From the NCBI GenBank assembly GCA_013299105.1, contig JAAFJY010000001.1, positions 390,978-454,977 on the forward strand: a DNA stretch of 64,000 nucleotides. The letters run 5' to 3'. The stretch is from Chitinophagales bacterium. Its GTDB lineage: Bacteria; Bacteroidota; Bacteroidia; Chitinophagales; Saprospiraceae. Shown in pieces: positions 2,852-18,582 of the stretch (its first letter is position 1; every line of letters begins with the position of its first letter). A model generated the notes under the pieces. The model had not been told where the DNA came from. It was given only the letters and a program-made list of their open reading frames with translations, and made no database searches. The position numbers and the translations under genes are program-made.

Positions 2852-3310
2852 ATGAAAAAAATATTGTTTTCGGCGCTTGCCCTCCTGGCTCTGCTCAGTG
2901 CCACGTCCATTCAGGCACAAGACGCGAAAAGCATCTGGACGACCTTGGCCAAGGTTACGTTCAAAAAACAGTACGACGAGATGTTGGGTTTCAAAGTCGA
3001 TGTCCCCGTTTTCAGTCCTGAAATCAAGTCGATGGATGGTAAAATGGTGGAAATTCGTGGCTACATCATTCCCGTAGAAGGTTATCGTGGGCACAAAGAA
3101 TTTGTATTCTCGGCATTCCCTTACAACATGTGTTTCTTTTGCGGTGGTGCAGGCCCTGAAACCGTGATGGAGGTATATGCCAAAGAAGCAATCAAGTATA
3201 CTACCGAAGCCATTGTGATCAAAGGTAAACTTGACCTGAATGCCGACGATGTCAATCGATTGATGTACGGACTCAAAGATGCCGAACTGGTAAAAACAGC
3301 GGCCAAGTAA
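2852..3310 (+). CDS. Exported small protein with CFFCGGAGPE motif (DUF3299-like)
   Basis: The 152-residue product begins with a signal peptide (MKKILFSALALLALLSATS, cleavage near IQAQDA). The mature part has GYIIPVEGYRGHKEFVFSAF followed by MCFFCGGAGPE near residue 95. The general pattern, a GYIIP strand followed by a Cys- or His-containing segment, resembles the OB-fold-like DUF3299 family, and the two closely spaced cysteines could bind a metal or form a disulfide. No function is established. A clear terminator follows directly, so the gene is probably transcribed alone or as the end of a short unit. Confidence 0.7.
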   Translation: MKKILFSALALLALLSATSIQAQDAKSIWTTLAKVTFKKQYDEMLGFKVDVPVFSPEIKSMDGKMVEIRGYIIPVEGYRGHKEFVFSAFPYNMCFFCGGAGPETVMEVYAKEAIKYTTEAIVIKGKLDLNADDVNRLMYGLKDAELVKTAAK

Positions 3311-3330
3311 GCAGAAAAGTCAAGAAATAA

Positions 3331-3366
3331 AAAGCCAGAATCACTGACGCGATTCTGGCTTTTTTT
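3331..3366 (+). terminator. Intrinsic terminator
   Basis: AAGCCAGAATC and GATTCTGGCTT form an 11-bp perfect stem with an 8-nt loop, followed by a run of six or more T. It lies 21 bp after the stop of the CFFC protein gene. Confidence 0.9.
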
Positions 3367-3404
3367 ATTGATGGCAATGCCGTACTTTCGTCAAAACCTA
3401 TCTT

Positions 3405-3914
3405 ATGAAACAACTGCTTACCTTGTTGATATGTACAATCAGTGTGGCGGTGCTGGCCCAAGAAACAAGTTTCCCCAAATCTTATGTGGGAACTTGGGAA
3501 GGCACCTTGAATTGGTACAAAGCCAACAATCCGAGCCCCCAAAGCATCGGCTTCAAGGTAGTATTTGCCCCAACAGATACCGCCAATCACTACATTTGGC
3601 AGCTCAAATACGCTGATCAACCAGTACGCGATTACCTGCTTAAGCCCGTTGACCCGGCCAAAGGCCATTGGGTAATCGACGAGCGCAATGGTATTTTGCT
3701 CGACCAGTTCTGGGTGGGCAATCAATTGACAGGCACTTTTTCAGTAGCTGGCAGTACCATTCTCAACACCTATCGCCTGGAGAAAAAACAGCTGGTGGTA
3801 GAGTTTCACACCCTGGCTACCAACGCCATTCGTAAATCGGGCAGTGGCGAAAACTTGGTGGACGCCTTCAAAATGCTTGGTTATCAAAAAGCGATATTGC
3901 GAAAAGTGAAATAA
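3405..3914 (+). CDS. Exported protein of unknown function, lipocalin-like size
   Basis: 169 residues beginning with a signal peptide (MKQLLTLLICTISVAVLAQE). The mature chain, rich in beta-forming residues, has GTWEGTLNWYK near the N-terminus and alternating strands such as GFKVVFAPTD and TFSVAGSTILNTYRLE, which suggests a small beta-barrel such as a lipocalin or calycin fold. That is inferred from pattern only. The stop lies 4 bp before dtd, so the two genes are very likely co-transcribed. No catalytic motif is visible. Confidence 0.65.
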   Translation: MKQLLTLLICTISVAVLAQETSFPKSYVGTWEGTLNWYKANNPSPQSIGFKVVFAPTDTANHYIWQLKYADQPVRDYLLKPVDPAKGHWVIDERNGILLDQFWVGNQLTGTFSVAGSTILNTYRLEKKQLVVEFHTLATNAIRKSGSGENLVDAFKMLGYQKAILRKVK

Positions 3915-3918
3915 GCAA

Positions 3919-4371
3919 ATGAAAGTAGTGATTCAGCGGGTCAGCGAAGCTTCGGTGACCATTGAAGGCCGTGTAAAATCAGCCATCGGCCCCGGTTTAT
4001 TGATTTTGGTGGGCATAGAAGACGCCGATGGGGCCGAAGACATCGACTGGCTGTGCAACAAAATCGCCAACCTTCGCATCTTCAACGACGAGGCCGGAGT
4101 GATGAACAAATCAGTGCTGGAAATCGGCGGCGAACTGCTGGTGGTCAGCCAGTTTACCCTACAAGCCAGCACTAAAAAAGGCAATCGCCCCTCCTACATC
4201 AAGGCCTCTAAACCCAATGTAGCGATCCCGATGTATGAAGCTTTTGTGAAAAAATTAGGCGAAATCACCCAACAAGCGATCGGTACGGGCGAATTTGGAG
4301 CCGATATGAAAGTGCGATTGCTCAACGACGGCCCTGTCACCATTTTGATCGATAGCAAGAACCGGGAGTGA
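3919..4371 (+). CDS. dtd: D-aminoacyl-tRNA deacylase
   Basis: The 150-residue product matches the Dtd family end to end: MKVVIQRVSEASVTI at the start, the SQFTLQAS active-site motif near residue 78 and the NDGPVTILID motif (GPVT) near residue 138. Dtd removes D-amino acids (and glycine) mischarged onto tRNA, protecting translation in the cytosol. The length is typical for the family. It starts 4 bp after the preceding exported-protein gene and runs into the rhaM region, so it sits in a compact three-gene unit. Confidence 0.95.
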   Translation: MKVVIQRVSEASVTIEGRVKSAIGPGLLILVGIEDADGAEDIDWLCNKIANLRIFNDEAGVMNKSVLEIGGELLVVSQFTLQASTKKGNRPSYIKASKPNVAIPMYEAFVKKLGEITQQAIGTGEFGADMKVRLLNDGPVTILIDSKNRE

Positions 4372-4409
4372 ACGCGGCCATAACTTTAATCACCTTGCAA
4401 CAATCACCC

Positions 4410-4733
4410 ATGCCCAACACCGAAACCATCGCCTTCGTCCTATACCTAAAACCAGGCAACGAAGCGGAATACCAACGCCGCCACGACGAAATCTGGCCGG
4501 AGCTGGCCGAAGCCCTTCGTGCAGTAGGCATCCTAGACTACAAAATTTTCCTGGAGCCCCAAACTGGTCAGCTTTTTGCGGTACAAAAACGCCAAGTTGA
4601 CCATTCTACCGCCGAACTCTCCCAACTTCCCATCATGCGCAAGTGGTGGGACTACATGGCCGACCTGATGCAGGTGAATGAGGACAACTCGCCAGTGGAG
4701 CGGGAGTTGAAAAACGTTTTTGACTTCAGTTAA
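4410..4733 (+). CDS. rhaM: L-rhamnose mutarotase
   Basis: The 107-residue product has the RhaM pattern: IAFVLYLKPGNEAEYQRRHD near the start, EIWPEL, and a C-terminal WWDYMADLM followed by NVFDF. RhaM interconverts the alpha and beta anomers of L-rhamnose in the cytosol. The ATG at 4410 gives the usual family N-terminus; a GTG at 4368 overlapping the dtd stop would add 14 unrelated residues and is less likely. No other rhamnose genes are nearby, so the protein may act on rhamnose or a related sugar from a distant pathway. Confidence 0.85.
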   Translation: MPNTETIAFVLYLKPGNEAEYQRRHDEIWPELAEALRAVGILDYKIFLEPQTGQLFAVQKRQVDHSTAELSQLPIMRKWWDYMADLMQVNEDNSPVERELKNVFDFS

Positions 4734-5651: not shown

Positions 5652-7685
5652 TCAAAGCCTGAACACCGCATAAGCCGTAGCCAATAAGGAGGGCTTGGGC
5701 GCACTGAGCGGCAATGAAAGCCGTGCACCCAGCGCTGGCCCTTGTCGTGCCATACCGATTTGTAAGTCTGCAAAAGGAGCGAAATCAAAATTAGGGCCTG
5801 TATCTCGTTTGAACACTTCTTCTCCATTACTAGAAGAAAGGTTGCGGATTAAATCCCCTTTGATACAATTACCTTGGTTGTCGCGTACACAAGCATACAC
5901 ATCGCGGCGGGTTTGGAAAAAACCTGCTTCCAGAAACTCCCAATTGGCGGTGACTTGTACCCCCAGACCTACGCCGATGAAATCGTTGAGGTTTTTGCGC
6001 ATGTGCAGGGGCACGAAATTAAAGGCAATCTGCTGCTGCTTACCGTTACCAAATGCAGTTTCGATTGAATCCACGATCACCTCAATGCGGCGGCCACCTA
6101 CCGCAACGGTCGTTTGGCGGCTCGATTGGAACAAAACTGCCCCATTGTCGGGGAAGTTCTTTTCGGTGGCAATGCTCGGAAAAAATTCCATTTGCCAATA
6201 TGCCCGATAAGGCTTGTAAGGTGAAATCGAGAGCCCAATGAAATTGGCAGGAATGGCCTGGTCATTGCGTACATCGAAACTACGCCCGGCCATGAATCCC
6301 AGTGACAAGCCTGGCCGGAAGCCAGTCTTGGCTTTATTGGTCACAATCGGCGGGTTTTTGTCAAAAACAATGCTCGCACGAGTGCCGAAAGGGTACTTTT
6401 CCATCTTCTTGGTCAGGTTGATCTGGTATTTTACCCAACCCTTGGTCGAATCGCGGTCATCTACATTGCGTTGCTTGGTGCCTGGCAAGTAAATGTCTTT
6501 AAAGGTGAAGACCAGCTGTTTTTTGCCGATCGTCGTATCCAGACAACTGCTGCTGCTTGCTCCATCCGGGCAAACGGGCACAGGTGGGTACGTTTCCAAA
6601 ATTTTGAGCTGGCTGGCATCAGTACCCGGCGGAATGTCCACTGTGACGGCGATGCGGCTGGCAGGGCCTTCGCCATTGTTTTGGAAATGGACATTGTATG
6701 TGATGTTTTTGTTTTTCAGGCCCCGGAAGTGCATCCTCCGCTCTGATACGCCGATGTAATTGGGGTCGTGCGAGGCCAATACTTCGATTTCTAAGGTGGC
6801 TTGGGCAGTTTTGCTATCATCCTGGTTGATGTACAGGGCACTCATGTTGATCACCGCGCTGGTATCGGCCAAAATATCGGGGGTCGCCATCAAAGACACG
6901 AAGAGGTTGCGCTTTTCGCCGGGCTTCAAGTTGCTGAAGGACCAGCTTTTTTGGTTGTCATACAAAACCAGGTTTTTCTGCTCCAATTGGTGGGGCAACA
7001 AAGGCGCGTAACTGAACGCCAAGTCCTGCACAGACGCTAAAAAACCACCAGTTTGGCTGGGATAATAGCTGATATTGCCCTCACCTGCCTCGGTTTCGCC
7101 GAAGTGTTTGCGGCTTTCGAGGTAGTTGAAATGTGGCTTGGGGTAGGCTTTTTGGTTAAAAAACAAGTGTAAGGCTCCATTTTCAATTTCAGTGCCCGTG
7201 TTGGTGTAGGTCAGGATCAATACCAGTTCTTCCTCCGCCCTGGGGTTGCGAATGGCGCGGATGGACAGGGTTTTTTCTTTAGGCCCAGCCTTCAAACCTG
7301 GAATGTTATCGGCCATGAGCGATGAGCCTTGGTCTACGTCGTTGCGCTTGGGGCGCGATTTGGGCGACTTGCCTTTGTCGTACTTGCCAGTGGCCCATAA
7401 CTGGGCTTCGTAGGCACCGGGGCGATTGTACTGGTGGGTCGGTTTGGGGTCAAAACTGTAGGTGCCGTCGCCGAATTCCCAGTAATAATCGTAGTAAGCG
7501 GTCGGTGCTCCAGCAATTTGGTTTTGCGGCGGTGTTTGGGGCGTGTAGCTGTACTTGTTGCCTTGCTTTTGGACCGTAAAATCAGCACTTGGCTCCGCTT
7601 TAGGTACTGGCTGTTTTTGGGCAAGACCAAAAACGGGCAAAAGACACAGGAACAGGGCTTTTGGAAATAGTTTTCTCATCGTCAT
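5652..7685 (-). CDS. Large exported protein with PKD domain and DUF11-like repeat
   Basis: About 677 residues starting at MTMRKLFPKALFLC, a signal peptide ending near FGLAQKQ. A PKD-type domain follows (WEFGDGTYSFDPKPTHQYN, roughly residues 65-80), then beta-rich segments, one resembling a DUF11/conserved-repeat domain (GEGPASRIAVTVDIPPGTD). The last third has alternating strands and ends in AYAVFRL, as an outer-membrane barrel would. It is therefore probably a cell-surface protein. The longest open frame reaches 7760, but that extension is translated from repeat R1 and is rejected. The start codon lies 4 bp from the edge of the R1 copy, so the promoter must lie within or beyond the repeat. 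Confidence 0.75.
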   Translation of the reverse strand: MTMRKLFPKALFLCLLPVFGLAQKQPVPKAEPSADFTVQKQGNKYSYTPQTPPQNQIAGAPTAYYDYYWEFGDGTYSFDPKPTHQYNRPGAYEAQLWATGKYDKGKSPKSRPKRNDVDQGSSLMADNIPGLKAGPKEKTLSIRAIRNPRAEEELVLILTYTNTGTEIENGALHLFFNQKAYPKPHFNYLESRKHFGETEAGEGNISYYPSQTGGFLASVQDLAFSYAPLLPHQLEQKNLVLYDNQKSWSFSNLKPGEKRNLFVSLMATPDILADTSAVINMSALYINQDDSKTAQATLEIEVLASHDPNYIGVSERRMHFRGLKNKNITYNVHFQNNGEGPASRIAVTVDIPPGTDASQLKILETYPPVPVCPDGASSSSCLDTTIGKKQLVFTFKDIYLPGTKQRNVDDRDSTKGWVKYQINLTKKMEKYPFGTRASIVFDKNPPIVTNKAKTGFRPGLSLGFMAGRSFDVRNDQAIPANFIGLSISPYKPYRAYWQMEFFPSIATEKNFPDNGAVLFQSSRQTTVAVGGRRIEVIVDSIETAFGNGKQQQIAFNFVPLHMRKNLNDFIGVGLGVQVTANWEFLEAGFFQTRRDVYACVRDNQGNCIKGDLIRNLSSSNGEEVFKRDTGPNFDFAPFADLQIGMARQGPALGARLSLPLSAPKPSLLATAYAVFRL

Positions 7686-7688
7686 TGG

Positions 7689-7822
7689 TATTTGAGCTAA
7701 AATAAGGTGGACATATTTGCTTTTAAGGTTTAGCAAAAAAAGAACACAACTTCCTTCCATCCAGTTGCTTTTCTTTTTTCACTAAACCCAAATCCGTCCA
7801 CCTTATTTTTTTACGCTCCCTT
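7689..7822. repeat. R1 dispersed element, copy A
   Basis: A 134-bp element whose ends are imperfect inverted repeats of each other: the left end has GAGCTAAAATAAGGTGGAC, and the complement of the right end has AGCG, A-rich sequence and ATAAGGTGGAC. The middle carries a conserved CTTCCTTCCA block. Related copies are at 10341-10483 and, inverted, at 43710-43852 and 45100-45235. No protein is encoded; the size and terminal inverted repeats resemble a MITE. Confidence 0.75.
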
Positions 7823-7949
7823 AGGTGTTTTGAACTAGGTTTGATAGGGAAATATACGAAAAACCAGGGGCTTGGTTGCAGCAGAAAGCCCACCAAGCTG
7901 GGGTTACAGCCTAGAAACGTTTTTTTTCTTCAAAATATGGTGTAAAAAC

Positions 7950-7994
7950 AAAAGGAGCCAGCATGTTTTGACTCAAACACCTGGCTCCTTTTAT
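7950..7994 (-). terminator. Intrinsic terminator of ettA
   Basis: AAAAGGAGCCAG and CTGGCTCCTTTT form a 12-bp perfect stem around a 19-nt loop. In the minus direction it lies about 20 bp after the ettA stop and ends in a short T run. Because the arms carry A and T at both ends it could work in either direction. Confidence 0.8.
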
Positions 7995-8012
7995 TGCTAT
8001 TGATAGAAATGG

Positions 8013-9692
8013 CTATCGGTTGATCACGTTTTTAAAGCGCGGTCGCTTAGGCGTTACGTCACCCAAGCGTGCTTTTTTAGCTGCTTCAAAATCGCTATAA
8101 TTGCCCTCGAAGAACTCCACGCTGGAGTCGCCTTCAAACGACAAAATATGCGTAGCCAGGCGGTCGATGAACCAGCGGTCGTGCGAAATCACGAGGATGC
8201 ACCCCGCGAAACTGTCCAGGCCATCTTCCAAAGCCCGCAGGGTATTTATGTCGATGTCGTTGGTAGGTTCGTCCAGCAGCAAAACGTTGCCTCCTTCTTT
8301 GAGGGTCATGGCCAAGTGTACGCGGTTGCGTTCTCCGCCCGACAGCATTCCCAGTTTCTTCTGCTGCGAATCGCCGCTGAAGTTGAAACGGCTGATGTAA
8401 GCGCGGGAGTTGACGCTGGTTTTGCCCACCGTGATCAGGTCATTTCCTTCGGAAATAGCTTCGAACACTGTTTTCTCCGTGTTTTGCAATTCGGTGTGCG
8501 ATTGGTCCACGTAGGAAAGCTGTACCGTTTCGCCAATTTTCACATCGCCAGCATCGGGTGTCTCCTGCTCCATGATGATACGAAACAGGGTCGACTTACC
8601 CACCCCGTTGGGACCAATGATGCCCACCACCGCGTTTTTGGGAATGTCTAGGTTCAGGTTTTCAAACAACAATCGATCACCGAATGATTTGCTGACATTG
8701 CTGAGTTGGATCACATTGTCGCCCAGGCGTGGCCCGGGTGGGATGAAGAGCTCCAACTTGGCTTCCTTCTCTTTTACTTCCTCATCTGCGAGTTTGTCGT
8801 AGGCGTTCAAGCGGGCTTTACCCTTGGCTTGGCGGGCTTTGGGAGCCATTTTGATCCACTCCAACTCTCGCTCCAGGGTTTTGCGGCGCTTTGATTCCGA
8901 TTTTTCTTCCTGCTCTAGGCGCTTGGCTTTTTGGTCTAGCCAACTGGAGTAATTGCCTTGCCAGGGAATACCCTCCCCTCGGTCGAGTTCCAAAATCCAG
9001 CCTGCTACATTGTCGAGGAAGTAACGGTCGTGGGTCACCGCGATCACGGTGCCGGGGAAGCTTTGCAGGTATTTTTCTAGCCAATCTACCGATTCAGCGT
9101 CTAGGTGGTTGGTAGGTTCGTCGAGCAGCAGAATGTCAGGTTTGCTTAACAACAAACGGCAGAGGGCTACACGGCGGCGCTCACCTCCCGACAAGACTTT
9201 GATGGGTGTGTCGCCTTCGGGGCAACGCAGGGCTTCCATCGCGGTTTCGAGGGTGTGGTCTAGTTCCCAGGCGTTCACATGGTCCAGGTACTCCATCAAT
9301 TCGCCTTGGCGCTCGATTAGGCGCATCATCTCGTCATCGTCCATTGGCTCGGCGAGCTTCAGGTTGATTTCGTCGTACTCCTGCATTTTACCCACGATCT
9401 CGCCCACCGCTTCTTCCACGATCTGGCGTACGGTCTTACTGTCGTCGAGCATGGGTTCCTGCTCTAAGTAACCAATTTTATATGAACCATCGAAGGTTAC
9501 TTTGCCTTCAAAGTTGCTCTCCAGTCCGGCAATGATTTTCAGCAAAGTCGATTTACCAGAGCCGTTCAGACCCAAGACGCCAATTTTTGCGCCATAAAAA
9601 AAGGACAACCAGATGTTTTTCAACACCTGTTTGCTGGGGGGAAAGGTTTTACTAACCCCTTCCATAGAAAAGATGATCTTTTCGCCGGCCAT
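8013..9692 (-). CDS. ettA: Energy-dependent translational throttle protein EttA (ABC-F ATPase)
   Basis: 559 residues with two ABC ATPase domains and no membrane segment, as in ABC-F proteins. Domain 1 has GLNGSGKST (about 41-49), LSGGERRRVAL and LLLDEPTNHLD; domain 2 has GPNGVGKST, LSGGERNRVHLAM and LLLDEPTNDID. A charged linker rich in lysine and arginine lies between them. The start MAGEKIIFSMEGVSKTFPP and the length match EttA, which binds the ribosomal E site and gates entry into elongation according to the ATP/ADP ratio. The start at 9692 was chosen on this N-terminus; a 37-residue upstream extension is not family-like. The gene appears monocistronic, with its own terminator. Confidence 0.95.
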   Translation of the reverse strand: MAGEKIIFSMEGVSKTFPPSKQVLKNIWLSFFYGAKIGVLGLNGSGKSTLLKIIAGLESNFEGKVTFDGSYKIGYLEQEPMLDDSKTVRQIVEEAVGEIVGKMQEYDEINLKLAEPMDDDEMMRLIERQGELMEYLDHVNAWELDHTLETAMEALRCPEGDTPIKVLSGGERRRVALCRLLLSKPDILLLDEPTNHLDAESVDWLEKYLQSFPGTVIAVTHDRYFLDNVAGWILELDRGEGIPWQGNYSSWLDQKAKRLEQEEKSESKRRKTLERELEWIKMAPKARQAKGKARLNAYDKLADEEVKEKEAKLELFIPPGPRLGDNVIQLSNVSKSFGDRLLFENLNLDIPKNAVVGIIGPNGVGKSTLFRIIMEQETPDAGDVKIGETVQLSYVDQSHTELQNTEKTVFEAISEGNDLITVGKTSVNSRAYISRFNFSGDSQQKKLGMLSGGERNRVHLAMTLKEGGNVLLLDEPTNDIDINTLRALEDGLDSFAGCILVISHDRWFIDRLATHILSFEGDSSVEFFEGNYSDFEAAKKARLGDVTPKRPRFKNVINR

Positions 9693-9808
9693 AGTTTTTG
9701 TATTTTGAATGGCGAATATACAGAAAAAACTTCCTGTCACACGATAGTTTGGCCGGAAGTTTTGGTAAAAGCTGAAAACTTTGGAGGAAGGTAGTCGCAA
9801 CAATCAAG

Positions 9809-9973
9809 CTAGTGGTACGAATTGTAAATCTGCCCCAAGTTCCACGGGGTATTTGTCTCCGTAGCTGCGTTGTTCGTCGGTCAAATAGTCCACTATTTTC
9901 CCTCCTCTCGCCTTGCTACAAAGCCAAATAGCCTGCCTGCAACCTAGGGGGTATTTGTAATTCGTACCACTAG
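9809..9973. repeat. R2 dispersed element, copy 1 (165 bp)
   Basis: This element starts with CTAGTGGTACGAATTGTAAAT and ends with its approximate complement, AATTCGTACCACTAG, giving terminal inverted repeats of about 15-20 bp. A second copy of exactly the same length lies inverted at 29063-29227, and a degraded third copy at 45330-45463. Short open frames through it are not conserved as proteins. It is probably a non-autonomous mobile or hairpin element. Confidence 0.8.
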
Positions 9974-12741: not shown

Positions 12742-13080
12742 TCACTTGTCACCGGGATAAGAGGTAACGAATCTTGGCTCCTCGCTACCCGTTTCGATGA
12801 TCCAAACGCTGACTACACAAGGATTGCGCTCGTCGGGGCTGGACAAGTCGCAATGGAGTTCGTATTTTTCGCCATACGGATTGGATTTGACTTGTACGAC
12901 CTCGCGTTCGAGCGCATGTTGCAACAAGGCCGCTTGTAAGGTTTCCCAGTTTTCGCTGGAAAAGCCAAATTTTTGGAAAAAACGGGCCTTGTGTTGACCG
13001 ATCTCATGCTCGTCATTGAGCAAGTAGTCCACTATTTTCTCTTTGGCAACACTGGCTTGCGCTTTGTGGGGTAGTTTCAT
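12742..13080 (-). CDS. DUF6883 domain protein, coupled to the Type ISP enzyme
   Basis: 112 residues beginning MKLPHKAQASVAKEKIVDYL, then NDEHEIGQHKARFFQKFGF and a C-terminal beta segment with VVSVWIIETG. This is the DUF6883 pattern (N-terminal KLP, then a HKARxF motif). In many genomes DUF6883 genes sit directly after DUF4926 genes as a two-gene module of unproven role. Here the DUF4926-like part is the C-terminus of the upstream Type ISP enzyme, and this gene starts one base after that stop (TGA-A-ATG), so translation is probably coupled. No toxin active site can be pointed to; a role as inhibitor, partner or toxin is inference. Confidence 0.75.
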   Translation of the reverse strand: MKLPHKAQASVAKEKIVDYLLNDEHEIGQHKARFFQKFGFSSENWETLQAALLQHALEREVVQVKSNPYGEKYELHCDLSSPDERNPCVVSVWIIETGSEEPRFVTSYPGDK

Positions 13081-13081
13081 T

Positions 13082-16000
13082 TCAGGATACCTTTTCGATT
13101 TGGCCTACCTCCACGGTTTCCACCACCGATTGCCCATTGACCATAAACTCTACTTCATAAGCCGCGCCAGCCTGGTACACGTACACCACTGCGCCCTGGG
13201 TACCCGCCTTGAGGTTGCCGATTGGGTTTTTCAAACGCACCAGGCTGTGTGCTGTCAATTCGGCACCGGGAGCGTTTGCTTCGCCAAAACTGAGGCGGGG
13301 CAGTTTTTCAACGATTTCCACGGTTTGTACGCTCAGGTTGATGACACTGAGCAGCAAGTCGAGGATGTAGCGCGGCTGGCCCACCTCGGCAGCCCAATCG
13401 TTGGGGTCGTTTTGGATGCCGCTTTCTTTGTGTACCGTGACTTGGTAACGCTCCATGATCCACTCGATGGCCGGTTTGCCATTGACCACGTACTCGTAAG
13501 CCCGGGCAGGAATGTTGCTGAGGCTGATTTTGTGGTTGTAGACAATGGTATCCTTTTGTCCTTTTTGCGGAAAACGCATTTTTTCGACCCGAAAATCGCC
13601 CGACTCTGCGCCCGCTACCTGTACCGCAGGGTGCGGCGGCACGTTTTCGTAGTGCAGGTGCAAATCGGCCAGGGCCCGCCCGGCCTTGCTGAAAGCCCAA
13701 AAATCGCGGACCTCATCGACCAGAGGCAAGCGGGGCAGCATTTTTTTGAGGTCGTTGGCAAAAGTCTGGCGGTACTCGGGGCTGTGCAAAAAACCATAGA
13801 CGTAGTAAAAAATGTCTTCCTTGCTCACGTTTTTGCCATACTGCTGCTGTGCCCGGCCCAGGATGAAATCGGAGATGCCATCCCGGCGCACATACTGCTC
13901 TTCGCTGACTGCATCAAACAAGCTGGGGCTTTGCTTTTGTTGTTCTTCGTAGTAGTAGAGGGGGAAACATTGACCATTGAACTCTAACTGAACATCGGGG
14001 ATCAAATCAGTAATTATAGCAGTGAACTCTTTGCTGCCGCCAACACCCGCCACGCTAATTACCAAATTCTTGCATTGAGGATTGGGGAAGAGTTTGGGGA
14101 TTTGGTAGACCATATCATTCAACTCTTGTGCAAAATATACGTTTTGCCTGGAGAATGGGCGATATAGGCCAACCAGTACTGATTCTTGTTTAAAGTAAAT
14201 TTTTTTACTTCTCGACATATCGTTTTTCAGTCCTCTATTCCAGGTTACTTTAATTGTGTCAAAATCAATAAAGTTTTCAAGTTTCAGGTTATTATTTTGT
14301 TGAAGCGCAGTTTGAAAATTGACTCGTTGGAGTTCATAATAATCAATAAACTCATGAATTGTAGCCTCTAATTTGAGTTTTGAAAAATTATAACAATAAG
14401 CATCTCTGGCCGTAGCTATTCCTCTGCTATAAAATGGATTGAAAAAAGTAGCACTACTCTTATCCTCCTTATCCCCCAGCGCCACAAACTCTCCAAACAC
14501 GTCATTGCGTTGGCTGATCCAATCGCCGTATTCATTGGCTTCCAGGTTTTGCCAGGGCATTTGGGCATTGGCCATGCTGCCCCAATCGCGGATGCGGGCC
14601 AGTTTTTCCTCGCGGCTCAGGTAATCGCCGATGTCGTGGTAATGGATTTTGGCTTTCTCGGTGCGGGCAGCGGGGTTTTTCACCAGCAAGGTAATGGCAA
14701 TGGGGGTCCGGGAGCCGGAGCCAAAGATTTTACCACCCTCTTTGCGGCTCAGTTCGCCGCTGGTGCGTTGGTTCCCCCTTAAATTGAACACCCAAATGCT
14801 GCTGAATTCTTTTTCCAGGGTTTTGCGCAGGCCATCGGTACTGTTGCTGTCGAGCCAGGCACCGTTGCTTACAAAGGCGATGATGCCACCCTGCGTGGGG
14901 TCCAGGCGGTCGGTGCTCCAGCGAAAGGCTTTGATGTAAGAATCGTAGAGTGAGTTTTTGTTGGTGGCTTGGGTAGTGCGGGCGTAGGTATCGGCGATGC
15001 GTTGGTCCAGGCGCTCGTACTTTAGGTTTTGGGCATTGTCATTGGCCGATTTTTGCCCCACGGAATAAGGTGGGTTGCCGATGATGATGCGCAAGGGGGC
15101 TTTCTTTTGTTTGACTACCCGTTCCGAGTTTTGTGGAAATAGGTCTGTAAAAAGTTTTTGACTTTCATCGGTTTCGCCCAACTGAAAAGTATCCGTCAGT
15201 ACGATGCCCTCAAAGGGTTCGTAGGCGCTGTTTTTGTCGCGCAGGTCGTGGTAGGCATTTTCGATGTTGATGGCGGCGATGTAATAAGCCAGCAGCACAA
15301 TTTCGTTGGCATGCAGTTCGTGGTGGTACTTGCGGGCCAGGTCGGCGGGGCCAATCAGGCCACTTTGCAACAAGCGGGTCATGAAGGTCCCCGTGCCCGT
15401 GAAGGGGTCGAGGATGTGGATGTTTTCGTCGGCGATGCTGCGGCCAAATTCCTGTTGCAACACATCGGCCACCGAGCGGATGATGAAATCTACTACCTCC
15501 ACCGGGGTATAAACGATGCCCAATTGCTCCACCATTTTGGGAAAAGCGGCCTTGAAAAACTTGTCGTAGAGCTCGATGATGATGCGTTGCTTGCCCTCGG
15601 CATTGTCGATCCCCTCGGCGCGTTTGCGCACCGAATCGTAGAATTTTTGCAGGGTGGGGTCTTGTGCTGCCAGGTTATTGCCTGCATCCAGCGTGGCCAG
15701 CATGTTTTGCATGGCCATCGACACGGGGTTGCTTTTGGCGAAAGAATAGCCTTCAAACAGGGCTTCAAAAACGGGCTGGGTGATGATGTGTTGGGCCAGC
15801 ATTTCCACCGCCTGGGCCTCGTTGATGCTGGGATTGATGTTTTTTTGCAAGCCCTGCAAAAATTGCTCAAAGGCCCGGCGTTGGTCGGCTTTGTTGCGAA
15901 TCAGGTTGCCGATGCGTTCAATTTGCTGTTCGGCGATGATGGCTACGTCCTTGGCCCACTGTTCCCAATAGCGGCGGTCGCCTACTTTTTGCACCATGCG

Positions 16001-18145
16001 GGCAAAAATGAGGTGCTGGAGTTGCTCGAATTGTAAACTCAACTGTTGGGCCAGGGTGTTTTTTGAAGACCAGGCTTGTCGCTCCTCTTTTAATTGTTGG
16101 TAATCGCCATTGGTGTCATAAGTGTGCTCCGGGCGACCGACCAGGATATTGTCGGGTTTTTTCTGGTTCAGTTCAATTTTGTTGACGATGGCGTTGAAGC
16201 GGTCGTCGTGCGCGCGCAAGGCGTTCAGCACGGTCCAGACCACTTTGTATCGTTCGTTGTCGTCCAGGGCTTTGTCGGGTTCCACATCGGATGGCACCAC
16301 CACGGGAATGATGATGTAGCCGTATTTTTTGCCAGGCGATTTGCGCATGACCCTCCCTACAGATTGCACCACATCCACTTGCGAGTTGCGGGCCGAGAGG
16401 AACAACACGGCGTCGAGTGAGGGTACATCCACGCCTTCGCTCAGGCAGCGCACATTGGTCAGGATGCGGCATTCGTTGCCTTCCGTATCGGCTTTGAGCC
16501 AGCCCAGCAGTTCATCGCGGGTAGTAGCGCTCATGGTCCCGTCGATGTGCTCGGCTTTGGTGTTGACCATCTGCTGTTTTTTCTCGGCGGGCAGGGTATT
16601 CAGGTAGGCTTCAGAGGCGAGATTGTAATTGGCGGTGATTTTTTTGGAGCTGTCAATGTTTTGGCAAAAAGCGACCGCACGGCGCATTGGTTCGGGGTCG
16701 GCTTCCTTGGTAATTCCTTGATCGCCCAGGAACTGTTTAGACAAGGCATTGATGGTGCCGATGATTTTCGACACGTCGTTGGAGTTGATCTCGGTGTCTT
16801 GGTTGCTGATCATGCGCTGCACGGCAGGGGGCACGTCTTGGTCATTGAGGGTCAGGATCAGCACCTTGTAATCGGTGAGCAGGTCGCTTTCCACGGCTTC
16901 GCCAAAACCGATGCGGTAAATTTCTTCGCCGTACAGACTTGTATCGTCCATGGAGCACAGGACAGCATCGGCTTGAGCGGCTTTGCTTTTCAAGTCATCG
17001 CTGTACAGGCGGGGGGTAGCGGTCATGTACAAGCGTTTTTTGGCTTGGATAAAGCCATTGTCGTGTACTTTGGTGAAAGCCGATTCGTCATCGTTTGCGA
17101 GGGTTACGCCCGTAGTGCGGTGGGCTTCGTCGCAAATGATGAGGTCAAAGGGCGCGAAACCATTTTCGAGCAATACCTTTTGGGCTTTGGCAATGACTTC
17201 GATGGATTGATAGGTAGAAAACACCACCGTCATGCCCGCTGTGGCCTTTTGTTTGAGCTGCCGAAACTGGTGGAGGATATTCTCCACGTTGGTAGAAGCG
17301 GGTAGGGCCAGGTCAATGGTGCTGGAAGTGTCGGCGTCTTCGTTTTTGGTTTTTTTCTTCGAAATCTCCGGGTCCGAGCAAATACAAATTGCGTTGATGG
17401 GCTCATTGGCATCGCTGGTCCATTCGCGCAAGCTTTGCCCCAGCAAGGCGATGCTGGGCACCAGGAACAAAACCAAGCCTTTGCCCCCGGTTTCGTTTTC
17501 TGCAATCCGCAGGGCAGTGAAAGTTTTGCCGGTGCCACAGGCCATGATCAATTTGCCGCGTTCTGCGGTTTGAAAGTAGGCATGGGTTTTATCGCGGGCT
17601 TCAGTTTGGTGTTTGCGCAGTGATTTTTTGGGTAGGCGAGAGGTTTCGCCGTGGATTCCTTGTTCCAGTTTTTGCCAATCGACAGGTGCATCAAGCAATT
17701 GGGCGAGGTTGATCCTACTGACTGCCGGGTTTTGGTTGCGGATCGCTTCTTCGGCATTGGGGCCCCATTTGTTGGTGGTAGAAATCCAAAGGCGATGGGC
17801 AAAACGGGTGTTTTGTAGTTGTTCGTTTTTGAACTCCCGACTGGAGGTAGCTAAAAAGCTGTCAACGGCGGGCTTGTCAATGATGGCGTCTGCTTGAAAA
17901 CATTTGCATTGAATGGCCCAATAATCGCCTTCCTGGGTCAGGGCCACCAAGTCAATACCTGTATCGGTAAATCCCAAGTCATTTTTTCCAGGAAACTCGC
18001 TCCACAACCATACTTTTTTGAGCTGGTAGGCATATTTAGGGTCGGTCAACAAATAAGCTTGCATCAACCTTTCAAAACGGGCTCCTTTGTCGCGTTCGGA
18101 CGAGGAGATTTGACGGTAATGCTGGAGAATTTGTTGAAAGGTCAT
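13082..18145 (-). CDS. Type ISP restriction-modification enzyme with C-terminal DUF4926 domain
   Basis: A single 1687-residue chain. Residues 1-160 form an Mrr-like nuclease (TGIDLVAL near 63-70, then AIQCK with the QxK at 79-81). Residues 190-610 are a superfamily 2 ATPase: CGTGKT at 203-208, CDEAH at 338-342, MTATPR, and QSVGRVMRKSPGK near 594-606. An N6-adenine methyltransferase follows, with DPFTGTGTF at 913-921 and NPPYSVG at 1024-1030, and then about 600 residues of target-recognition type ending near EKLPRLSF. This order is that of the LlaGI/LlaBIII single-chain enzymes, which methylate one strand of their site and translocate on DNA before cleaving. Residues 1630-1687 (LVRLKNPIGNLKAGTQGAVV, then YEVEF) look like a fused DUF4926 domain. 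The start MTFQQILQHY was chosen at 18145; the 63 residues upstream are not family-like. Confidence 0.9.
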   Translation of the reverse strand: MTFQQILQHYRQISSSERDKGARFERLMQAYLLTDPKYAYQLKKVWLWSEFPGKNDLGFTDTGIDLVALTQEGDYWAIQCKCFQADAIIDKPAVDSFLATSSREFKNEQLQNTRFAHRLWISTTNKWGPNAEEAIRNQNPAVSRINLAQLLDAPVDWQKLEQGIHGETSRLPKKSLRKHQTEARDKTHAYFQTAERGKLIMACGTGKTFTALRIAENETGGKGLVLFLVPSIALLGQSLREWTSDANEPINAICICSDPEISKKKTKNEDADTSSTIDLALPASTNVENILHQFRQLKQKATAGMTVVFSTYQSIEVIAKAQKVLLENGFAPFDLIICDEAHRTTGVTLANDDESAFTKVHDNGFIQAKKRLYMTATPRLYSDDLKSKAAQADAVLCSMDDTSLYGEEIYRIGFGEAVESDLLTDYKVLILTLNDQDVPPAVQRMISNQDTEINSNDVSKIIGTINALSKQFLGDQGITKEADPEPMRRAVAFCQNIDSSKKITANYNLASEAYLNTLPAEKKQQMVNTKAEHIDGTMSATTRDELLGWLKADTEGNECRILTNVRCLSEGVDVPSLDAVLFLSARNSQVDVVQSVGRVMRKSPGKKYGYIIIPVVVPSDVEPDKALDDNERYKVVWTVLNALRAHDDRFNAIVNKIELNQKKPDNILVGRPEHTYDTNGDYQQLKEERQAWSSKNTLAQQLSLQFEQLQHLIFARMVQKVGDRRYWEQWAKDVAIIAEQQIERIGNLIRNKADQRRAFEQFLQGLQKNINPSINEAQAVEMLAQHIITQPVFEALFEGYSFAKSNPVSMAMQNMLATLDAGNNLAAQDPTLQKFYDSVRKRAEGIDNAEGKQRIIIELYDKFFKAAFPKMVEQLGIVYTPVEVVDFIIRSVADVLQQEFGRSIADENIHILDPFTGTGTFMTRLLQSGLIGPADLARKYHHELHANEIVLLAYYIAAINIENAYHDLRDKNSAYEPFEGIVLTDTFQLGETDESQKLFTDLFPQNSERVVKQKKAPLRIIIGNPPYSVGQKSANDNAQNLKYERLDQRIADTYARTTQATNKNSLYDSYIKAFRWSTDRLDPTQGGIIAFVSNGAWLDSNSTDGLRKTLEKEFSSIWVFNLRGNQRTSGELSRKEGGKIFGSGSRTPIAITLLVKNPAARTEKAKIHYHDIGDYLSREEKLARIRDWGSMANAQMPWQNLEANEYGDWISQRNDVFGEFVALGDKEDKSSATFFNPFYSRGIATARDAYCYNFSKLKLEATIHEFIDYYELQRVNFQTALQQNNNLKLENFIDFDTIKVTWNRGLKNDMSRSKKIYFKQESVLVGLYRPFSRQNVYFAQELNDMVYQIPKLFPNPQCKNLVISVAGVGGSKEFTAIITDLIPDVQLEFNGQCFPLYYYEEQQKQSPSLFDAVSEEQYVRRDGISDFILGRAQQQYGKNVSKEDIFYYVYGFLHSPEYRQTFANDLKKMLPRLPLVDEVRDFWAFSKAGRALADLHLHYENVPPHPAVQVAGAESGDFRVEKMRFPQKGQKDTIVYNHKISLSNIPARAYEYVVNGKPAIEWIMERYQVTVHKESGIQNDPNDWAAEVGQPRYILDLLLSVINLSVQTVEIVEKLPRLSFGEANAPGAELTAHSLVRLKNPIGNLKAGTQGAVVYVYQAGAAYEVEFMVNGQSVVETVEVGQIEKVS

Positions 18146-18356: not shown

Positions 18357-18360
18357 TGAG

Positions 18361-18434
18361 CGGTCTGGACGGGACTCGAACCCGCGACCCCCTGCGTGAC
18401 AGGCAGGTATTCTAACCAACTGAACTACCAAACC
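18361..18434 (-). tRNA. tRNA-Asp (GTC), copy 2
   Basis: 74 nt folding as a normal cloverleaf: acceptor GGTTTGG pairs with CCAGACC through one T-G wobble; the anticodon arm is CCTGC-CTGTCAC-GCAGG with anticodon GTC; the T arm contains GGTTCGAGTCC. The discriminator base is G and no CCA is encoded. It is identical over all 74 nt to the copy at 18509-18582. Confidence 0.95.
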
Positions 18435-18503: not shown

Positions 18504-18508
18504 GTTAG

Positions 18509-18582
18509 CGGTCTGGACGGGACTCGAACCCGCGACCCCCTGCGTGACAGGCAGGTATTCTAACCAACTGAACTACCAAACC
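18509..18582 (-). tRNA. tRNA-Asp (GTC), copy 1
   Basis: Identical in sequence to the copy at 18361-18434 and transcribed first. The two lie 74 bp apart in the same orientation, consistent with a tandem duplication. Both share the T-G wobble in the acceptor stem. Confidence 0.95.

Follow-up and report, generated by a model that had tools for sequence, protein, structure and literature searches.

We analyzed a 64,000-nucleotide stretch of a Chitinophagales bacterium genome (Saprospiraceae; GCA_013299105.1, contig JAAFJY010000001.1, positions 390,978-454,977 of the forward strand), hereafter the window, in which a type ISP restriction enzyme ends in a DUF4926 tail and is followed by a gene for a DUF6883 protein. 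The same tail and neighbor recur on unrelated restriction enzymes, and the architecture is real, recurrent and probably functional. With moderate confidence, we favor the reading that the tail is an antitoxin anchored on the enzyme, where it would restrain a DUF6883 RNase toxin, so that the assembly acts as both an addiction and a guard device.

The enzyme is encoded on the minus strand (13082-18145) as a 1687-residue chain with no inner stops in its translation. Its restriction-modification body, residues 1-1620 (13286..18145, minus strand), contains an Mrr nuclease, helicase, coupler, N6 methyltransferase and target recognition region. Pfam matched Mrr_cat_2 (residues 34-164), ResIII (174-379), Helicase_C (487-602), ISP_coupler (726-851), N6_Mtase/Eco57I and Type_ISP_C, the last up to residue 1597, and the nuclease, Walker A, DEAH, helicase VI and methyltransferase motifs were all found. 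The alignment to LlaBIII, a solved ISP enzyme, covers residues 2-1619 only. These domains, motifs and alignment bear out the complete single-chain ISP architecture that an earlier note had read from the DNA. The enzyme resembles LlaBIII and LlaGI in carrying this architecture, from nuclease to specificity domain, to residue 1619-1620, and differs in what follows. PADLOC labels the protein a type IIG restriction enzyme-methyltransferase.

Beyond the body lie a linker (residues 1621-1628, GEANAPGA; 13262..13285, minus strand), seen in the translation and of low pLDDT in the tail model, and the tail itself (residues 1629-1687; 13085..13261, minus strand), a predicted SH3/KOW barrel and proposed antitoxin. 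In the whole protein, the DUF4926 profile (PF16277) matched residues 1643-1668 with 27.2 bits, just below the Pfam cut-off of 29.1, and residues 1615-1687 scanned alone gave 33.0 bits, above that cut-off, placing the tail in the family as the earlier note had proposed. The junction reads TGA-A-ATG (13078..13084, minus strand), being the enzyme stop, a single base and the start of the neighboring gene. The 112-residue protein that begins there (12742..13080, minus strand) matched DUF6883 (PF21814) with 126.9 bits against a cut-off of 27, its sole Pfam match at E ≤ 0.1, and is predicted from AlphaFold2 (AF2) and Foldseek to be a BECR-fold RNase toxin. The weld, the tight junction and the pairing of the two families that the note had described are thus all supported. 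Tail and partner are the only DUF4926 and the only DUF6883 found in the window genome at E ≤ 0.001. Tight junctions also occur at other loci described below, with a gap of 1 nt in L044 and of 4 nt in L045 and L046, and overlaps in L047, the Rhizobium etli plasmid case and L149 (ATGA). This tightness suggests translational coupling, which would confine synthesis of the toxin to places of fresh enzyme production.

The tail is an addition to the ISP enzyme. In a phylum sample of 395 genomes, Type_ISP_C was found in 110, and 30 ISP loci were fetched, top by score, one per genome and with the window included. The window alone among these matched DUF4926. By eye, the other 29 enzymes stop near the same point, with 'LPxLxFE' in the closer ones and up to ~10 residues further in the divergent ones; one untailed enzyme (L060) shares 70% identity with that of the window over 720 residues. 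Among plasmids, none of the 25 ISP matches listed (of 871 records) aligns beyond residue 1639 of 1687, and tblastn of plasmids with the 73-residue tail found no match. We therefore rejected the tail as a regular feature of ISP enzymes, since it is lacking in 29 of 30 phylum loci and in the 25 listed of the 871 plasmid records. A profile built from seven fused tails (A2) matched 20 places in 18 of the 395 genomes, and only two of these lie in long frames, that of the window (1780 aa) and that of G236 (1183 aa), the other 18 frames having 77-203 aa. Separate gains of the tail within the ISP enzymes were unsupported, as the tailed enzymes form no clear clade and the supports near L045 are weak (33-58).

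Within the window's own family, 100 genomes contain DUF6883 in two cases and DUF4926 in three, and the window genome and G093 have both. G093, from another genus of the family, holds a second tailed ISP gene (L151, L004) that has decayed: it contains ~0.5 kb of additional DNA, its frame shifts ahead of the tail, and the DUF6883 that follows lacks the N-terminal ~42 residues. Apart from this truncation, every examined ISP homologue with the tail also has a DUF6883 gene, in keeping with the fusion that the earlier note had put forward. The third genome, G036 (L003), carries a stand-alone DUF4926 and gave no DUF6883 match.

We then asked where else the weld is found. An alignment of three restriction-linked DUF6883 proteins (A1) was used to scan genome contigs and returned 13 loci, at eight of which the upstream enzyme ends in a DUF4926-like tail; the query favors restriction-linked cases, so this rate is biased. 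DUF6883 comes next after an ISP enzyme with a tail in L045 (Cerina litoralis) and L047, after a tailed type I HsdR behind HsdM and HsdS in L046 (a Balneolaceae metagenome-assembled genome, the same locus as G236/L016, 100% over 3330 bp), and after tailed rhizobial BPTD_3080-like enzymes in L052-L055. In L044 (Algoriphagus) the tail ends a T5orf172/GIY-YIG protein of 913 residues, and an Eco57I-type methylase is encoded two genes upstream. L054 and L055, whose contigs are equally long, are probably one case, and the tail of L053 passed the laxer threshold only. Scored by Pfam, the tail of L044 lies above the cut-off (30.9 bits), those of L045, L046 and L047 below it (21.3-23.3 bits), and that of L052 was not matched. 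The BPTD_3080 form is also present on Agrobacterium pusense pAt1 and on Rhizobium etli pRsp8C3b, the latter behind an annotated methyltransferase. A second phylum sample of 299 genomes, centered on G496 (the Ciceribacter genome of L052), added G648, which has HsdM, HsdS and a tailed HsdR (32.5 bits, above the cut-off) whose end overlaps the DUF6883 start in ATGA; the other BPTD_3080 cases of this sample are in G496 and in G750, whose contig matches those of L054 and L055 in length. The weld is therefore not unique to the window. It is present on ISP enzymes, type I HsdR (two separate cases), a GIY-YIG enzyme (type II-like) and BPTD_3080 enzymes (type III-like).

The untailed relatives that were examined end before the tail. 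For BPTD_3080, the five enzymes listed at 80-82% identity end at 911-914 of 978; for GIY-YIG, the 12 best relatives (42-56% identity) end at 840-854 of 913; and a Planktothrix HsdR (54.9% identity) ends at 1089 of 1175. A Methylibium BPTD_3080 match that reached query residue 977 crosses stop codons, and no tail was seen there. We did not count as a fusion the 729-aa frame of G768 (L150) that ends in DUF4926, since it holds no further domain and is probably open because the DNA is GC-rich. Some of these loci have further genes of interest. In L044, a GmrSD-type (type IV) restriction gene (7440-9947) follows the GIY-YIG/DUF6883 pair, as in a defense island; PemK/MazF is annotated between M and S beside the untailed HsdR relative of Planktothrix agardhii p4 (L128), and RelE/HigA closely upstream of an untailed GIY-YIG relative on Sphingopyxis macrogoltabida plasmid 4 (L129).

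Comparison of L045 (ISP) and L046 (HsdR) indicates how the weld spreads. The two loci share 544 bp at 85.1% identity, comprising linker, tail and DUF6883, while the 190 bases on each side show 26-27% identity position by position and the sole other match is one of 37 bp elsewhere. The nucleotide match between L045 and the window also stops at the edge of the cassette (6775). A cassette of this identity between unrelated flanks shows that tail and DUF6883 move as a unit. In a tree of 68 DUF6883 domains, with midpoint rooting and poorly supported deeper branches, the HsdR-linked L046 groups with the ISP-linked L045 (support 98), and both with the ISP-linked L047 (100); the rhizobial BPTD_3080 cases and the HsdR case of G648 lie on other branches. 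Judged from these separate branches, at least three weldings of the cassette are likely. Both parts are under purifying selection in the one pair L045/L046, where the tail has a ratio of nonsynonymous to synonymous substitution rates (dN/dS) of 0.13 and DUF6883 one of 0.23.

Pairing of the two families is widespread and also occurs away from restriction enzymes. DUF6883 was found at 27 places in 23 of the 395 genomes, and at 26 of these an adjacent DUF4926 lies on the same strand within 400 bases (24 after, 2 fused before). Together with the tight junctions given above, this is the adjacency expected of a toxin-antitoxin pair. The adjacent gene pairing described in the earlier note is thereby borne out. 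The remaining place, L039, was not recognized as DUF6883 by our own profile. The DUF4926 profile behind this count was built partly from those same loci; an earlier profile from seven seeds, including the window tail, had already found them, with weak matches at L033 and L035. In L035, weak DUF6883 and DUF4926 matches fall within one 135-aa frame, which may be a fused or a decayed pair. The second sample holds 12 DUF6883 places in 7 of its 299 genomes, with DUF4926 after in three, before in four, before within a long frame in four and none in one. For plasmids, 12 loci were fetched from 20 DUF6883 records, and DUF4926 lies after in seven, before in two, fused before in two and none in one. The reversed order, DUF4926 before DUF6883, is found in L041, L043, L142, L144, L145 and L146, from two Methylobacterium plasmids and genomes of the G496 sample, and is the same order as in the fused cases. 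On a Meiothermus taiwanensis plasmid (L012), a stand-alone DUF6883-DUF4926 pair sits directly before a gene for a type I R-like helicase (ResIII, EcoEI_R_C).

In viral loci, DUF4926 follows DUF6883 in 17 of 19 at the strict threshold, the match of L124 being weak and L123 having none. DUF6883 is the C-terminal part of a frame of 397-538 residues in L121-L125, and Pfam matched Phage_Mu_F in L121, L122, L124 and L125 (27.5 bits in L121 and L122, below the cut-off of 29.6), giving no such match in L123. A plasmid prophage of Anoxybacillus (L010) likewise has DUF6883 C-terminal to Phage_Mu_F (67.2 bits). Viral scans with the P0002, L010 and A4 queries found no relative, and tblastn of phages with the L010 domain found no match. 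L111 contains two DUF4926 copies (3272-3481 and 4351-4560), only one of them adjoining DUF6883. Described phage toxins include MuF proteins of temperate phages that carry effectors at their C-terminus (PMC5576092, PMC5512222). The phage MuF-DUF6883 protein with DUF4926, usually the next gene, is likely a toxin/immunity pair of this kind. It differs from the window in that its toxin forms part of a virion protein, beside a free antidote, whereas in the window the antidote is joined to a defense enzyme and the toxin is free. That DUF4926 occurs as a free protein next to a toxin-like DUF6883, in phages as well as on plasmids, suggests that it serves as an antidote.

We used AF2 to explore the structures of both parts. 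The DUF6883 model (26-row alignment A6; mean pLDDT 95.9, pTM 0.88) has three helices followed by a four-stranded sheet, consistent with the BECR core of an N-terminal helix or helices and then a four-stranded sheet (PMC5512222). Searched with Foldseek, its only PDB matches at E ≤ 0.001 were the four CdiA-CT chains of 6cp9 (CdiA-CT Kp342; E of 2.1e-4 to 8.1e-4, TM of 0.71-0.72, rmsd of 3.7-4.4). RelE/HigB2 chains gave much weaker matches amid many unrelated folds. In the BFVD database, the top two matches are minor capsid proteins and the third is named a metallopeptidase. The active site of CdiA-CT Kp342 is described as K157, Y160, H170, R252 and T255, with a Lys-Tyr-Thr triad (PMC9086364). 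DUF6883 has counterparts, matched by residue type and order only, in K15, Y19, H25, R103 and T106, kept in 60, 60, 54, 42 and 48 of 62 distinct sequences (58 with Ser at the last position). From this conservation and likeness, the proposed active site is encoded at 13006..13038 (K15, Y19, H25) and 12763..12774 (R103, T106), both on the minus strand. From its modeled structure, DUF6883 is predicted to be a BECR-fold RNase toxin, probably a tRNase. The tail model (18-row alignment A10; mean pLDDT 90.0, core 94-97, first ten residues 58) is a five-stranded barrel, closest to the C-terminal domain of NusG, the KOW domains of Spt5 and NdhS (best E of 1.6e-3, none at E ≤ 0.001), which suggests that DUF4926 is a small SH3/KOW barrel.

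CdiA-CT/CdiI Kp342, a BECR tRNase toxin with its immunity protein, thus offers the closest solved fold, and its Lys-Tyr-Thr, His and Arg residues have the candidate counterparts given above. It differs in being delivered between cells, and sequence similarity to DUF6883 was not found; its immunity protein CdiI is described as almost entirely β-strand (PMC9086364). The RelE/ParE type II systems resemble the cassette in pairing a small BECR toxin with an adjacent small antitoxin (PMC11980606). DUF6883 would be another toxin subfamily, whose proposed antitoxin, an SH3/KOW-like barrel, forms the end of a restriction enzyme.

We propose that DUF4926 would act as the protein antitoxin of DUF6883 and, moored at the C-terminus of the enzyme, would make the enzyme itself hold the toxin in check, and coupling of the genes would ensure that toxin arises only beside newly made enzyme. 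Were the enzyme lost, degraded or blocked, by gene loss or by a phage anti-restriction protein, the restraint would fail and the freed RNase would stop translation. The toxicity, the coupling, the contact between tail and DUF6883, the RNA that is cut and the release trigger are steps that we infer. A precedent is PrrC, a tRNase described as silenced by the linked type I enzyme EcoprrI and released by the phage peptide Stp (PMC2610378). Both systems place a translation-stopping RNase beside a restriction system and, on our reading, the enzyme itself restrains it. PrrC differs in having ABC-ATPase motifs, another nuclease and a type I partner (PMC2610378), whereas in the window the antidote domain lies inside the restriction polypeptide and the toxin is the small DUF6883 protein. 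In place of the ABC ATPase and anticodon nuclease domain of a PrrC homologue, the 112-residue partner matched DUF6883 only. By analogy the DUF6883 system may work like PrrC, yet it is no member of that family.

Several points weigh against the proposed guard. The PDB search with the DUF6883 sequence profile matched no known toxin, so that likeness to solved toxins by sequence was rejected and the toxin link rests on predicted structure. PADLOC and NCBIfam give no family for the DUF6883 protein, and the literature searches turned up no experiment with either DUF6883 or DUF4926. Two of the proposed active-site residues vary, R103 being kept in only 42 of the 62 sequences and H25 in 54. The phage proteins of L010 and L123 carry DUF6883 with no DUF4926 found nearby, and G093 retains its tail though its DUF6883 is truncated and its enzyme broken.

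Other explanations have to be weighed against these data. The cassette may be one of plain addiction, in which the end of the restriction gene is a mere platform for expression and stability, the tail neutralizes the toxin without sensing the state of the enzyme, and the benefit arises only upon loss of the locus. The pairs stand alone at 9 of the 12 plasmid loci fetched (of 20 records), and the cassette is portable between unrelated enzymes, which implies no enzyme-specific sensing surface. All upstream fusions with another recognized domain are, however, restriction enzymes, unlike what a random platform would give; this restriction-only pattern is biased by the restriction-linked queries, and the unbiased samples hold few cases. 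We consider plain addiction unlikely, though it is the strongest of the alternatives.

Less probable still is that DUF4926 serves as a tether rather than an inhibitor, recruiting DUF6883 to the restriction complex as a second nuclease against invader RNA or DNA where restriction takes place. The resemblance of the tail to SH3/KOW barrels, a fold that often serves binding, would suit such a role, as would the retention of both parts together under purifying selection; yet phage and stand-alone DUF4926 are free proteins fused to no enzyme, which suits an inhibitor better than a tether. We regard as very improbable a fortuitous fusion without function, in which the tail would be left over from a pair that came to lie behind restriction genes. 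The decayed locus of G093, with its broken enzyme and truncated DUF6883, speaks for such a history, but the spread of welded cases over three or more separate branches of the DUF6883 tree, dN/dS well below 1 in both parts and the tight junctions argue against it.

We return to the moored antitoxin as our preferred reading. The earlier note had suggested a safety device that senses loss of the enzyme or blocks its activity, and this idea, which we still infer, is better grounded by the BECR fold, the active-site pattern, the toxin/immunity layout in phages and the repeated welding. Full-text searches found no paper that mentions DUF6883 and one, a cyanophage survey, that only lists DUF4926; they showed no description of the tail with DUF6883 either, coverage being partial, so that novelty is unproven.

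The surroundings of the window locus were also inspected. Two tRNA-Asp(gtc) genes lie closely upstream of the ISP gene (18360-18434 and 18508-18582). No mobile gene was recognized among the eight neighboring open reading frames tested, which include galactokinase-like and acetyl-CoA carboxylase alpha genes. The window genome encodes a second Type_ISP_C protein elsewhere (G000:C67:128429-129469, a 1040-aa frame).

Phages carry dedicated inhibitors that disarm restriction enzymes. The known example of a back-up toxin that fires upon such disarming is PrrC, but this is a single protein family, known best alongside a type I enzyme. The model places DUF6883 in a toxin fold, and the cassette appears recurring and portable rather than one odd fusion. 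A bolder and more tentative proposal is that a mobile cassette of antitoxin tail and RNase, by jumping onto the 3' ends of restriction genes, turns enzymes of several kinds (ISP, type I, type II-like and type III-like) into guarded systems, tied to no one enzyme type, in which disarming by a phage would free the RNase and the infected cell would stop translating. If true, a portable cassette on four kinds of enzyme would mean that restriction systems are guarded by a modular strategy of general use, and two uncharacterized Pfam families, DUF6883 and DUF4926, would gain a testable function.

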